64,000 nucleotides of DNA from Halorubrum sp. CBA1229. Lineage in GTDB: Archaea > Halobacteriota > Halobacteria > Halobacteriales > Haloferacaceae. The position numbers and the translations under genes were made by a program. Shown here piece after piece: positions 55,160 through 60,520 of this stretch; positions within the stretch are counted from its first letter, which is position 1, and each line of letters opens with the position of its first letter. The stretch spans positions 1,054,001 to 1,118,000 of the forward strand of contig NZ_CP054585.1 of NCBI RefSeq assembly GCF_003721435.2, given 5' to 3'. The notes under the pieces are model-generated. The model worked only from the letters and a program-made list of their open reading frames with translations, did no database searches and was not told the origin of the DNA.

Positions 55160-57394
55160 CTACTCCTCGGTGGTGTACTGCCGGTCGTAGCCGAACGGCA
55201 GGTAGCTGTCGCCGCCGCCCTCGTAGAAGTTCCCGAAGAACTCCACGTACTCGAGGCGCACCGCCTGAATGCCGGCGGAGGTGATCCCGAGCGCGAGGAC
55301 GACGATGTGGCCGACGACCGCGACGATGATCCCGCCGACGAGCGCGACGACGCCGACCGCGCCGATCGAGGCCGGGTCGAAGGCGGTCGTCATCCCCGCG
55401 AAGACGAGCTCGTAGTCCTCGGGGTGGCTCCGGACGTACTGGAGGTAGTCGGCGCTGAAGATGAAGTGGAAGCTCCCCTCGCCGCTCTCGTCGATGTACG
55501 CGCCGAACGCGAGCAGGTTCACGGCGAGCGCCATGCCGCCCTTCGCGAGCAGCACCGCCATGATCCGGGCGTACGAGATGACGTTGACGATCGGGGAGAG
55601 CACCTCGGCGAGCTCCGGGGGCTCACCGATGGCGAGCAGGACGACGCCCGCGAGGATGGCCGCGATGGCGGCGTACCCGACCGCGACCGGGAAGCCGCCG
55701 AACGACACCGCCCCGAAGGTGAGGATCGAGAACGACTCGAAGAGGAAGTCGGGCTTCGGACCGGGGAGGTGCTGGCTGAAGATCCAGATCCACGCGCCGT
55801 TGAGGATCAGCAGCCACGAGCCGCCCTCGTACAGCGCGTGCTTGAGGTCGTGCTGCTGGTAGTTGCTCACGAACGAGAGGACGTGACCCACGTTCAGGTG
55901 GGCGAGCCCGAACAGCACGCTCGCGACGAGGAACGACAGCGCCCAGTCGATGTCGGCCGGCGAGAGCCCCTTCCCGTCGACGGGCCAGTGGATGTCACCG
56001 GGCAGCAGCTGGTAGGCGTGGTAGCCGAACACGTCGATCCCGAAGTAGATCCCGAACAGGATCGTGAAGCCGCCGGCCCACATCGCGACGGCGCCGAGCT
56101 CCCGGAACGTCCCGTCGTACCGGCTGTACAGGAAGGCGCCGATCCCGGCGTAGAGGACGCCGTAGCCGACGTCGCCGATCATGAAGCCGAACATGAGCGG
56201 GAACGTGAGGAAGACGAGGAGCGTCGGGTCGAACTCCGAGTACTTCGGCCGGCCGAACCCCTGCACGAGCAGTTCGAAGGGGCCCGCCGCGCTCCCGTTG
56301 TCCTGGACGACCGGCGGGTCGTCGTCGCCGTGCGTCGCGTGGCCGCCGTCGGTGGCGGCCTCGCGGTCGGCGTCGTCTCCCGTGGCCGCGGTCGCGGCGT
56401 CGGCGCCGCCCGCGGAGCCGCCGTCCGCGACCGCTTCGGTGTGGTGGTCGCCGTCGGGCGTGAACGAGGCGCGTTCGAGCTCCTCGACCTCGGCGTGGTC
56501 ACCGACTGCGTCGGCGATGCTCGCCTCGAAGTCGGGGTAGGTGTCCGTGGGGATCCACCCCTCGGCGACGAACGCGTTCTCCGTGGTCGCGAACGAGAGC
56601 GGCGCCTCCTTCTTCTCGGCTTCGATGGTGAGCTGCTCCTCGGCGCGGAGCAGGAAGCCGGCCGCCTCCCCCTTCACGTCGGCGAGATCGGCCTCGATCT
56701 CCTCGAGATCGGCCCGCAGCTCCTCGCGTTCGCGCTCAAGCTCCGCAACGTATTCGGCGGGGCCGGCGTCGGCCTCCGGCACCTCCAGCAGCGCGATGTC
56801 GACGCCGACGAGCGAGTCCTGCAGGACGCCCTCCTCGGCGCCGTCGGCGGGCTTCGCGAAGATCGCCACGACGTCGCTGCCGGCGAACACCTCGTAGGCG
56901 TCGAGCCCGTCGGCGTCGGCGAGCGTCTCCTCGACGGCGTCGGGCTTGGCCTCGCCGACGACGACCTCGAGCGAGTCGTAGCCGCGAAGCAGGTCGAGTT
57001 CGATGCCGAGGTCCGCGAACGGCTCCATCCGATCGATCGCCTCCGCCCGATCGCGGATCTCGGCCTGGAGCTCGTCTCGCCGGTCGTTGAGGGCGTTGAC
57101 GCGCTCGCGGACGTCGGCGAGCTCGCGTTCGAGCTCCTCGTCGTCGATGGCGCGGGCCGCGTCGAGCTCGTCGCCCTCGACGTCGAGGACGCTCTCGAGC
57201 GCGCGGACGGTGACGAGCTGCTCGTTCACCGTCTCGGCGCCCTCGAGCGACTCGCCGGGCGCGAACCCCTCGTAGCGCTCGTCGTAGTCCGTGACGTGCA
57301 GCGAGTGGTGGGCGTACGCCGCCTCGATGACGTCGTCGATGACGCGCTTCGAGCCCGTCACCGACACCTTGCTCATCCGCTCAGGCCTGAGCAT
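55160..57394 (-). CDS. atpI: A-type ATP synthase subunit I
   Basis: A 744-residue membrane stator subunit (a-subunit). The cytoplasmic N-terminal part (about residues 1-420) is helical and acidic, with coiled coil at about 85-225. The C-terminal half has about eight membrane helices (LVFLTFPLMFGFMIGDVGYG, the conserved GxxGDxGYG). Residues about 308-362 form an unusual His/Asp/Ala-rich low-complexity insertion (for example DGDHHTEAVADGG). It overlaps ahaH by 14 bases. A 147-base gap after it, before atpK, is free of genes. Confidence 0.93.
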   Translation of the reverse strand: MLRPERMSKVSVTGSKRVIDDVIEAAYAHHSLHVTDYDERYEGFAPGESLEGAETVNEQLVTVRALESVLDVEGDELDAARAIDDEELERELADVRERVNALNDRRDELQAEIRDRAEAIDRMEPFADLGIELDLLRGYDSLEVVVGEAKPDAVEETLADADGLDAYEVFAGSDVVAIFAKPADGAEEGVLQDSLVGVDIALLEVPEADAGPAEYVAELEREREELRADLEEIEADLADVKGEAAGFLLRAEEQLTIEAEKKEAPLSFATTENAFVAEGWIPTDTYPDFEASIADAVGDHAEVEELERASFTPDGDHHTEAVADGGSAGGADAATAATGDDADREAATDGGHATHGDDDPPVVQDNGSAAGPFELLVQGFGRPKYSEFDPTLLVFLTFPLMFGFMIGDVGYGVLYAGIGAFLYSRYDGTFRELGAVAMWAGGFTILFGIYFGIDVFGYHAYQLLPGDIHWPVDGKGLSPADIDWALSFLVASVLFGLAHLNVGHVLSFVSNYQQHDLKHALYEGGSWLLILNGAWIWIFSQHLPGPKPDFLFESFSILTFGAVSFGGFPVAVGYAAIAAILAGVVLLAIGEPPELAEVLSPIVNVISYARIMAVLLAKGGMALAVNLLAFGAYIDESGEGSFHFIFSADYLQYVRSHPEDYELVFAGMTTAFDPASIGAVGVVALVGGIIVAVVGHIVVLALGITSAGIQAVRLEYVEFFGNFYEGGGDSYLPFGYDRQYTTEE

Positions 57395-57737
57395 CCACCG
57401 CCTCCTCGGCCTGTTGGTTCACCGCTTCCTCGAACCGTTCGACTGCGTAGTCGACGGCCGAGTCCACGCGCTCGCGGGCCTCGCGTTCGAGCTCGTCGCG
57501 GTCGGACCGGCCCGCCTCGAGGATCTCCTCCTTCCGTTCCTCGATCTCCTCGCGGGCCGCCTCGAGCCGCTCCGCGGCCTCGGACTCCGCCTCCTCCTCG
57601 GCCTCGGCGCGGATCTCGTCCGCGCGCTCTCGAGCCTCGGCGAGGCGCTCGTCGGCGTCCGATTCCGCCGTCGCGATGATCTCGTCCGCCTCCCGTTCAG
57701 CCTCCTTGATCCGGTCGAGCACCTCTGGTCTCGCCAT
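57381..57737 (-). CDS. ahaH: A-type ATP synthase subunit H
   Basis: A 118-residue acidic protein that is almost one long coiled coil: RIKEAEREADEIIATAESDA, then ARERADEIRAEAEEEAES, as in archaeal subunit H of the stator. It is the first gene of the operon. The promoter (57768-57775) is in the gap shared with the divergent MinD-like gene. The C-terminal 14 residues overlap the start of atpI. Confidence 0.9.
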   Translation of the reverse strand: MARPEVLDRIKEAEREADEIIATAESDADERLAEARERADEIRAEAEEEAESEAAERLEAAREEIEERKEEILEAGRSDRDELEREARERVDSAVDYAVERFEEAVNQQAEEAVDAQA

Positions 57738-57767
57738 GCTACTAATCGCCTGAAACTCTACAAGCGA

Positions 57768-57775
57768 CGTATAAG
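57768..57775 (-). promoter_or_regulatory. TATA-like box of the ATP synthase operon
   Basis: On the minus strand CTTATACG lies about 30-38 bases before the ahaH ATG. Positions 57738-57891 are the only gap able to hold promoters for both the operon and the divergent MinD-like gene. Confidence 0.4.
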
Positions 57776-57860
57776 GTGTTTGCGAAAGTACGCGGGCCTT
57801 GCTCCCGATAGCGGCGGGAATCGGCGGCGACGGGGGTCTGATCGACCGCCTGCCGCCTAC

Positions 57861-57868
57861 ATTTAAGT
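57861..57868 (+). promoter_or_regulatory. TATA-like box of the MinD-like gene
   Basis: ATTTAAGT ends 23 bases before the ATG at 57892, compatible with a leaderless transcript. Confidence 0.5.
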
Positions 57869-57891
57869 ACCAGTCGCCGGACCGTCACCGT

Positions 57892-59379
57892 ATGGCAACG
57901 GTGTATGCGGTCGCGTCGGCGAAAGGTGGGGTCGGGAAGACCACCACGACCGCGGCGATAGCGACGGTCCTGGCGGGCTCCGGCGCCGACGTCGTCGCGA
58001 TCGACGCCGACATCGGCATGGCGAACCTCGCGGGCGCGCTGGGCGTGACGCCCGACGAGCCGACGCTCCACGACGTGCTCGCGGGGCGGGCCGACCCGCT
58101 CGACGCGGTCCACGAGGGGCCGGAGGGGCTCCGCGTCGTCCCCGGCTCGGAGGACCTCGACGCCTACGCGTCGGCGGATCCGGCCGGGCTCGCGGACGTC
58201 GTCGCGGCCTTCGAGGACGCCGACTACGTGCTCGTCGACGCCGGGGCGGGGCTCTCGCACGACTCCAGCCTCCCGCTAGCGATCGCCGACGAGACCCTGC
58301 TCGTCTCGACCGCCGAGCGGAGCGCCCTCGGCGACACCGAGAAGACGCGGCAGCTCGCGGAGCGGCTCGGCGGCGACGTCGCCGGCGCCGCGATCACCCG
58401 CGTCGACCCCGACGCCGACGAGGTCGGCGTCGACGGGCTCGCCGCCGACGTCCTCGACGCGGCAATTCTCGGCCGGATCCCGGAGGACGACGCCGTGGTG
58501 CGGGCGGCGACCGCGAACCGCCCGCTTCCGACGTTCGCGCCGGACGCGCCCGCCACCCGGGCCTACCGGGACCTCACGCGAGCGCTGACGGACGTCGATA
58601 TCGAGGGGGCCGGGACCAGCGAGGGCGACGACGCGGAGGCCGACGACACCGAACCAGATGCGGACGACGACGCTGACGACGCCGAACCGGACGAGGCTGA
58701 GACCGCGGCGGCCGGGGCGACCTCCGGGAGTGACGAGAACCCCGTCGGAGAAGGCACGGAGGCGGGGACGACCAGCGAGGCGGAGACGGTCGAGCGCGTC
58801 GACACGGACGAGGAGGACATCATCGTCGCCGACGCCGAGGCGGGGGGACTGAGCGACCCGGGCGACGAGGAGGACATTATCGTCGCCGACGAGGACCCCG
58901 CCGCGGAAGGCGACGGGGAGGCGGAGACGACCGGGGAGACGGAGACGGTCGGCGAAGAGCACGTCGACGGCGACGACCTCGAGGCGATGATCGAGGACGA
59001 TGTCGACGATCCGGAGGCGTTCGACGAGGCGGAAGCACCCGACGACGCGGAGACGATCGACGACGCGGAGAGCGAGGGTGTGCAGATAGACGACGCGGAG
59101 AGCCCCCCGAAGACGGCCGCGGACGAACCCGAGCCGGACGACGGCGCTGCGGCCGCCGAGGAACCGACCGCCGACCCCGACGACGAGCTGGCGGGGAGCG
59201 TCCCGTTCCGCGACGACGACACCGGCATGAACACCGTCCTCTCGGAGGGCGCCGAGGACGCGGAGGAGACGGAAGAAGCGGAGGAGGCGGAGGAACCGGA
59301 GGACGCGGCGGAGACGGACGACGAGGAGGGGGGAGAAGAGAAGAGCGGCGGCTTCTTCAGCCGGTTGTTCGGACGCTAA
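57892..59379 (+). CDS. MinD-like ATPase with acidic linker and membrane-targeting tail
   Basis: A 495-residue protein from ATG 57892. Residues about 1-235 form a ParA/MinD ATPase domain with the deviant Walker A AKGGVGKTTTTA (Lys11 and Lys16), IDADIGMANLAGALG, and LVDAGAGLS. A linker of about 245 acidic residues follows (low complexity, Asp/Glu/Ala/Thr), carrying two copies of EEDIIVAD (about residues 306 and 325). The last 12 residues, KSGGFFSRLFGR, resemble the bacterial MinD membrane-targeting amphipathic helix. That architecture recalls haloarchaeal MinD4, which organises polar structures. It is divergent from the ATP synthase operon. Confidence 0.88.
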   Translation: MATVYAVASAKGGVGKTTTTAAIATVLAGSGADVVAIDADIGMANLAGALGVTPDEPTLHDVLAGRADPLDAVHEGPEGLRVVPGSEDLDAYASADPAGLADVVAAFEDADYVLVDAGAGLSHDSSLPLAIADETLLVSTAERSALGDTEKTRQLAERLGGDVAGAAITRVDPDADEVGVDGLAADVLDAAILGRIPEDDAVVRAATANRPLPTFAPDAPATRAYRDLTRALTDVDIEGAGTSEGDDAEADDTEPDADDDADDAEPDEAETAAAGATSGSDENPVGEGTEAGTTSEAETVERVDTDEEDIIVADAEAGGLSDPGDEEDIIVADEDPAAEGDGEAETTGETETVGEEHVDGDDLEAMIEDDVDDPEAFDEAEAPDDAETIDDAESEGVQIDDAESPPKTAADEPEPDDGAAAAEEPTADPDDELAGSVPFRDDDTGMNTVLSEGAEDAEETEEAEEAEEPEDAAETDDEEGGEEKSGGFFSRLFGR

Positions 59380-59451: not shown

Positions 59452-60423
59452 CTAGGCCTCGGAGGGCGCCGCCGCCCGATCGCGGATGAGCTCGCGGATT
59501 TCCTCGGGGTCAGTGATGCCGGCGAGCTCCTCGCAGGAGACCAGGGCGGTGCCGTCGACCGACTCGCGCTTCTCGTCCTCCTCCGTGAAGTAGACGGAGC
59601 GCGTCCGGGCGACCTCGCCGATCGAGGACATGATCCGCGCGCGCTTCTCCGCGGCGGGGGTGAACGCCGAGTGGCCGGTGAGCACCCGGGTCTCGGCGCG
59701 CTGGTCGTCCTCGGAGACCGCCTTGAACGGCGCGCGGGCGGTCGGGTGGACCGTGAAGCCGGCGTTGGTAAGCACGTGGAGGACGTGCTCGTCGTCGGGG
59801 TCGGTCTCGGGCGCCGAGGGGGTCGGATCGGCGTCGCGCACCTCGTCCGCGCCGCCCAGCACGTCGACCGGGCTGGAGAACGGCTCGTCGAACAGGTCCT
59901 CGAGCTGGACCGCGACCTCGATGGAGGCGTTCATCCCGTCCTCGTACTTCGAGACGGTGCGCCGGGAGACGCCGAGCTCGGTCGCGAGCCGCCCGAGCGA
60001 CCAGCCGCGCTCCTCGCGCTCGTCGGCGAGGAGGTCGCCGTCGAGGCTGACGTAGAGCCCGCCGGGCGCCGCGTAGATGAGCGGCGGCATCCCCTCGACG
60101 AACAGGTCGTACCCCGTGTCGGGGTTGATCACCGGGACGCCGTGCCGGAAGTAGACCACGCCGGGCTTCAGCTCCTCGTCGCGGGTCCGGATTCCGATCA
60201 CCATCGGCGTCGCGTGCAGGTACTCGCCGAGCCGGCGCATCTCCGCGCCAGTCTCCGCGTCCAGCGCGTCGACGTTGCCGAGTATTTTCAAGAGGAGGAG
60301 GTCCTCGTCGCGCCGGGCCGCCACGTCGAAGCTCTTGGGCCGGACCGCACACCGGTCGCTGACGAGGAAGCCCGCGTCCTCGAGCATCGCGGTGACGTTT
60401 TCGATCAGCGCAGTCCGGGACAT
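59452..60423 (-). CDS. HTH-type transcriptional regulatory protein (MJ1164-like)
   Basis: A 323-residue protein from ATG 60423. The upstream extension of the open frame covers the promoter region. A helix-turn-helix of XRE type lies at about residues 130-165 ([20 protein letters not shown]). The N-terminal half has an alpha/beta nuclease-like feel ([38 protein letters not shown]), as seen in archaeal HTH proteins of the MJ1164 type annotated as putative regulators. The C-terminal part (about 210-323) includes [14 protein letters not shown]. The ligand is unknown. Confidence 0.85.
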
Positions 60424-60445
60424 ACCAGAAACAAGCAGTTCACCG

Positions 60446-60452
60446 TATATAT
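60446..60452 (-). promoter_or_regulatory. TATA-like box of the HTH regulator gene
   Basis: TATATAT on the plus strand reads ATATATA on the minus strand and ends about 23-29 bases before the ATG at 60423, the leaderless spacing. Confidence 0.5.
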
Positions 60453-60520
60453 GCGTTGTGTCACTTGTATTCGCGCGAAACCGCCGCCCGCTTGCGGTTT
60501 TCCCGACGAATCGGGCGGAG

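Follow-up and report, generated by a model that had tools for sequence, protein, structure and literature searches.

A gene in Halorubrum sp. CBA1229 encodes a MinD-like ATPase that carries an end resembling that of bacterial MinD on a long acidic tether, and it lies back to back with an ATP synthase operon. These features raise the questions of which MinD this protein is, what its C-terminal region could do, and whether its neighbour has any part in its function. We analysed the stretch of 64,000 nucleotides that contains the gene (contig NZ_CP054585.1, positions 1,054,001 to 1,118,000), hereafter called the window. The features discussed are collected in Table 1.

Table 1. Features of the minD4 locus, in window coordinates
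Feature	Position	Strand	Basis
Gene taken to be atpH, at the head of the A-type ATP synthase operon	57381..57737	-	Weak Pfam ATP-synt_B match; conserved position before atpI
Divergent intergenic region atpH/minD4, 154 bp	57738..57891	.	Two separate TATA-like elements
minD4-type gene	57892..59379	+	ORF of 495 aa plus stop
ATPase domain of MinD type with deviant Walker A, residues 1-240	57892..58611	+	TIGR01969; PDB 1hyq match
Deviant Walker A KGGVGKTT, residues 11-18	57922..57945	+	Sequence; K11 and K16 invariant in alignment
Acidic tether, residues 241-483, predicted disordered	58612..59340	+	Composition; AlphaFold pLDDT about 25-45
EEDIIVAD copy 1, residues 307-314	58810..58833	+	Sequence; restricted distribution
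EEDIIVAD copy 2, residues 326-333	58867..58890	+	Sequence
AGSVPFRDDD, [IV]PF box of the tether	59191..59220	+	Motif counts in 79 orthologs
MNTVLSE, [MYF]xTxL box of the tether	59227..59247	+	Motif counts in 79 orthologs
C-terminal MinD-MTS-like tail KSGGFFSRLFGR, residues 484-495	59341..59376	+	Family conservation; E. coli MinD alignment

Layout of the protein

The ATG start of the gene is supported by its orthologs in the genus, which open with M[AVG]TVYA(V/I)ASAKGGVGKT. In a profile search, TIGR01969 (minD_arch) matched residues 5-238 of the protein, and the best match in the PDB was A. fulgidus MinD (1hyq, E = 4.6e-40). A Walker-B-like sequence, DYVLVDAGAG, is found at residues 111-120. The 243 residues of the tether contain 43% D/E and 3 K/R, giving a net charge of -101. 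AlphaFold, run with an alignment of nine sequences, placed the start of the ATPase domain with confidence, left the tether disordered and gave no confident helix for the tail. The preliminary description of a MinD-like ATPase with a long acidic linker and a MinD-like tail was right in every detail.

Relationship to MinD4

The window's genome carries several MinD-like genes. The one studied here gave the genome's best TIGR01969 score, a borderline 202.3 bits against a cut-off of 201.75 in the whole-genome scan, and 199.8 bits, just below the cut-off, when the full 495-aa protein was scored alone. Its score with the bacterial MinD profile TIGR01968 was 89.2 bits, compared with a cut-off of 212.9. 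In a tree of 71 ATPase domains, several deep forks of which are weakly supported, the window protein grouped with the proteins of the family's prf1-argS (MinD4) locus. Three of its own paralogs (L003, L004 and L005) paired in the same tree with Haloferax paralogs (L100, L101 and L106).

Ten named Haloferax genomes have the order prf1-minD4-argS, with DUF6276 upstream and, in most of them, also atpB and atpD within the sequence covered. This order fits the published locus tags, since minD4 of H. volcanii (HVO_0322; PMC11588486) lies five genes past the ATP synthase operon (HVO_0311-0317; PMC3828320). From the tree and the ancestral gene order, the latter judged from these ten relatives of H. 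volcanii, we infer orthology of the window gene with MinD4. The likeness to MinD4 raised in the preliminary description is supported, and the protein is another member of an already known type.

The protein shares with Haloferax MinD4 (HVO_0322) the ATPase clade and the ancestral locus, again as judged from the ten Haloferax relatives, together with an extended acidic C-terminal region, a host that bears archaella, and a basic amphipathic end, which reads GFFSRFLG or GFFRRFLG in the named Haloferax relatives. It differs in length, having 495 residues and a shorter tether where the named Haloferax proteins have about 590-660 residues, and in its pair of EEDIIVAD motifs. It also has MNTVL where Haloferax has YTTSL, and its gene lies opposite atpH whereas the Haloferax gene adjoins prf1.

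The ATP synthase neighbour

The position opposite the ATP synthase promoter had been put forward as notable. In the window, minD4 is divergent from atpH at a distance of 154 bp, and the two genes are neighbours in all loci of its genus (g1) with enough flank, as would be expected if MinD4 worked with the adjacent ATP synthase, for example by placing or regulating the enzyme. However, outside this genus the adjacency was found only in two related genera, g12 and g14. Among the other haloarchaea examined, both the family's remaining genera and other families, minD mostly lies between prf1 and argS, an order that is usual but not defining for the MinD4 group and that the window gene lacks. The MinD proteins encoded beside atpH form one clade (97% SH-aLRT). 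The two genes also have separate TATA-like elements, TTTAAG at 57862 on the minD4 side and a minus-strand TTATA about 37 nt before atpH, which probably mark separate promoters. In addition, prf1 and argS adjoin each other without minD in the window's own genome, about 83 kb from minD. A partnership with ATP synthase is thus very improbable. Because the adjacency is limited to one clade, we rejected a functional link, and the atpH neighbour is no part of the MinD4 system.

The simplest reading of the locus is that the ancestor of the clade underwent a single transfer of a minD-containing segment to the atpH side. The minD-free pair, which lies outside the window at G000:C1:1196615-1200167, is either the emptied ancestral minD4 site or the result of a later rearrangement. 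In a g12 relative (L184), minD is on the atpH side and the far end of the ATP synthase operon is still followed by DUF6276 and prf1, and in a g14 relative (L037/L183) minD is flanked by argS and atpH. We also considered an inversion of the atp operon as the cause of the adjacency and dropped it, since in L184 prf1 still follows DUF6276 and minD alone has moved. A conserved HTH_3 regulator gene (59452-60456, minus strand) lies directly downstream of minD4 and convergent with it; it is 87-97% identical across the genus.

Motility and the proposed mode of action

MinD4 of H. volcanii oscillates and forms polar caps, and the caps need the Walker motifs; the polar placement of ArlD and CheW and full motility also need MinD4 (PMC11621097, PMC11588486). 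Motility defects are described there both for deletion of minD4 and for mutation of its Walker motifs. These properties are known for H. volcanii alone; by analogy, the window species probably uses its MinD4 in the same way. Its genome has matches to the archaellum family PF04659. Among 148 genomes of the family, 123 have both MinD4 and PF04659, 11 have neither, 9 have MinD4 alone and 5 have PF04659 alone, MinD4 being called present by a clear gap in best E-value that separates MinD4 matches from genomes with paralogs only. MinD4 and the archaellum genes thus tend to be lost together (Fisher P = 4e-8; 4e-6 for the 129 good genomes), with the reservation that the Fisher value overstates independence because the co-losses fall in few genera. 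The absences cluster in g3, g4 and g6. Both genes were lost together in several g3 and g6 genomes. Two good genomes (G147 and G002) contain archaellum genes and no MinD4-grade match.

The best explanation of the gene, to which we assign a probability of about 0.8, is that its product is MinD4 and organises the archaellum and chemotaxis machinery at the cell pole, acting through a tail on a tether. ATP-dependent dimerisation of the deviant-Walker ATPase would pair two weak C-terminal amphipathic ends, and the paired tails would then hold the MinD4 dimer at the membrane and give rise to polar caps. The long acidic tether would allow the ATPase to sit off the membrane, and its short motifs, [IV]PF, [MYF]xTxL and in the window's genus also EEDIIVAD, might dock partners. 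This dimer-tail logic is proposed for MinD4 because bacterial MinD attaches to the membrane only as a dimer, a single tail being weak (PMC6803595). The bacterial scheme cannot be transferred whole, since oscillation of MinD4 is independent of the Walker motifs (PMC11621097).

The C-terminal tail

Read from the genome, E. coli K-12 MinD ends in EEEKKGFLKRLFGG, and the window counterpart is EEKSGGFFSRLFGR. The two ends are identical at 8 of 13 aligned positions, GGFFSRLFGR of the window protein aligning with GFLKRLFGG, so the likeness reported earlier is real. The protein has a C-terminal amphipathic end of the kind that serves as the MinD membrane-targeting sequence (GFLKRLFGG) and, as in the MinD4 group, this hydrophobic-basic tail ends a long C-terminal extension. 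The window protein and E. coli MinD both belong to the deviant Walker A ATPase family and their tail ends are nearly identical (GFLKRLFGG versus GFFSRLFGR). In E. coli MinD (270 aa), however, the tail directly follows the ATPase domain, while a tether of ~243 residues intervenes in the window protein. Neither minE nor minC was found near the gene in the examined part of the window. We know of no MinE partner for pole marking in archaea.

Conservation of the tail in orthologs, on which the preliminary description had staked its reading, was examined in 73 proteins (the window protein, its family orthologs and three named Haloferax). The pattern G[FLIV][FLIVM]x[RW][FLI][FLI] occurs within the last 12 residues of 72, the sole exception (L038) ending at a contig end, and in 0 of 14,600 shuffled C-terminal regions. 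A stricter pattern, written for the DNA of this end, has a single match in the 3.58 Mb genome. The argument rests on conservation and not on amphipathicity statistics, since the hydrophobic moment of the 12-mer is unremarkable and is reached by 10% of shuffles. The family orthologs range from 257 to 721 residues in total length, so the tail was kept while the tether was free to change. The shortest members, L061, L062 and L068 of genus g24 (257-273 aa), carry a TGFLRWLLR tail nearly straight after the ATPase domain and have almost no tether, as in bacterial MinD.

Proteins of the same locus outside the family often end in a hydrophobic and usually basic sequence (GFFGRLLG, GFLGGLF, GVLGRLGSLFK, GLFSRLFGR or GLLSRFFG), and GVFGLFN and SLLSRLTGGRLG are further variants in other families. 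In family f7 the MinD4-locus protein ends in VSSAITEAESD and has no tail, and many f7 genomes have archaella. Six archaella-bearing f7 genomes each gave one MinD4-grade match, and all four of the proteins that were read are tail-less. The tail is therefore not universally needed. The f7 proteins L130, L132, L133, L136, L138, L139 and L143 have a short linker, and their C-terminus, which lacks the tail, is conserved.

Judged from its sequence, the last ~9 residues of the window protein probably bind the membrane. The C-terminal end could instead be a motif that binds a protein on a polar partner, with the tether as a reach arm. The hydrophobic tails of other families are quite different from one another (GFLGGLF and GVFGLFN, for instance), and the conserved motifs within the tether would mean that MinD4 already has docking-like segments. 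Yet the window end is closely like the membrane-targeting end of E. coli MinD, and ends that differ in their residues yet stay hydrophobic and basic fit lipid better than a specific pocket. We regard a partner-binding end as improbable and prefer membrane attachment.

Two earlier publications reduce the novelty that the preliminary description had implied for the tail. Truncation of the C-terminus of Haloferax MinD4 is already known to impair motility (PMC11621097), and the title of a 2002 paper, cited in PMC6803595, calls the MinD membrane motif conserved in archaea. FlhG/FleN, a regulator of the number and place of flagella, is likewise a MinD-like ATPase that governs motility organelles and binds the membrane via an amphipathic helix at its C-terminus (PMC6803595). 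FlhG differs from the window protein in carrying an N-terminal helix that activates FlhF and in lacking a long acidic tether, and the likeness seen between the two is at the level of sequence only.

Motifs of the tether

Motifs were counted in the tethers of 79 orthologs and compared with the numbers expected from shuffles of each tether. [IV]PF was present in 40 of the 79 (0.44 expected), [MYF]xTxL in 25 (0.17 expected) and [DE][IV][IV][VI]A[DGSEAP] in 9 (0.12 expected); these counts are less independent than the shuffles assume, the sequences being related, though the tethers are otherwise largely unalignable. A de novo motif search with 24 genus representatives ranked IPF-containing and Y-T-T-S-L-like patterns at the top. 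The [IV]PF motif, residues 437-439 of the window protein, is present in three other families too. The duplication of EEDIIVAD, to which attention had been drawn earlier, is real. It is not the main conserved motif, however, having been seen in five genera alone, the window's among them, and [IV]PF and [MYF]xTxL occur much more widely. Two tempting leads are corrected: EEDIIVAD does not have a broad distribution, and the closeness to the ATP synthase genes is incidental.

High D/E is typical of haloarchaeal proteins, and the tether might be a mere acidic solubility spacer of a halophile that docks nothing, its motifs being remnants by descent. Its length, anywhere between about 10 and 470 residues, its largely unalignable sequence between genera and the lack of [IV]PF in about half of the examined orthologs would all suit a spacer. 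On the other hand, [IV]PF and [MYF]xTxL exceed expectation across several families and genera, and the hydrophobic residues retained in a disordered acidic stretch point to selection. We consider a simple spacer unlikely.

The sequence pattern suggests that the tether motifs may bind partners. We propose tentatively, and at less than even odds, that the tether is a docking platform: specific polar partners from the archaellum or the chemotaxis arrays would attach at [IV]PF, at [MYF]xTxL and, in some genera, at EEDIIVAD, and the tether length would set how far from the membrane they reach. If this were true, the archaeal positioning system would be built unlike bacterial MinD-MinE. The conserved motifs offer small, specific targets for mutation in Haloferax to learn how MinD4 reaches its cargo. 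The analysis adds modestly to what was known: the tail is deeply conserved and has been lost in one family, the tether carries [IV]PF and [MYF]xTxL boxes, and the odd locus has an explanation. One member of the window's genus without a PF04659 match (L027 of G144) has a shorter tether, free of EEDIIVAD and MxTxL, in which SVPF is kept together with the tail.
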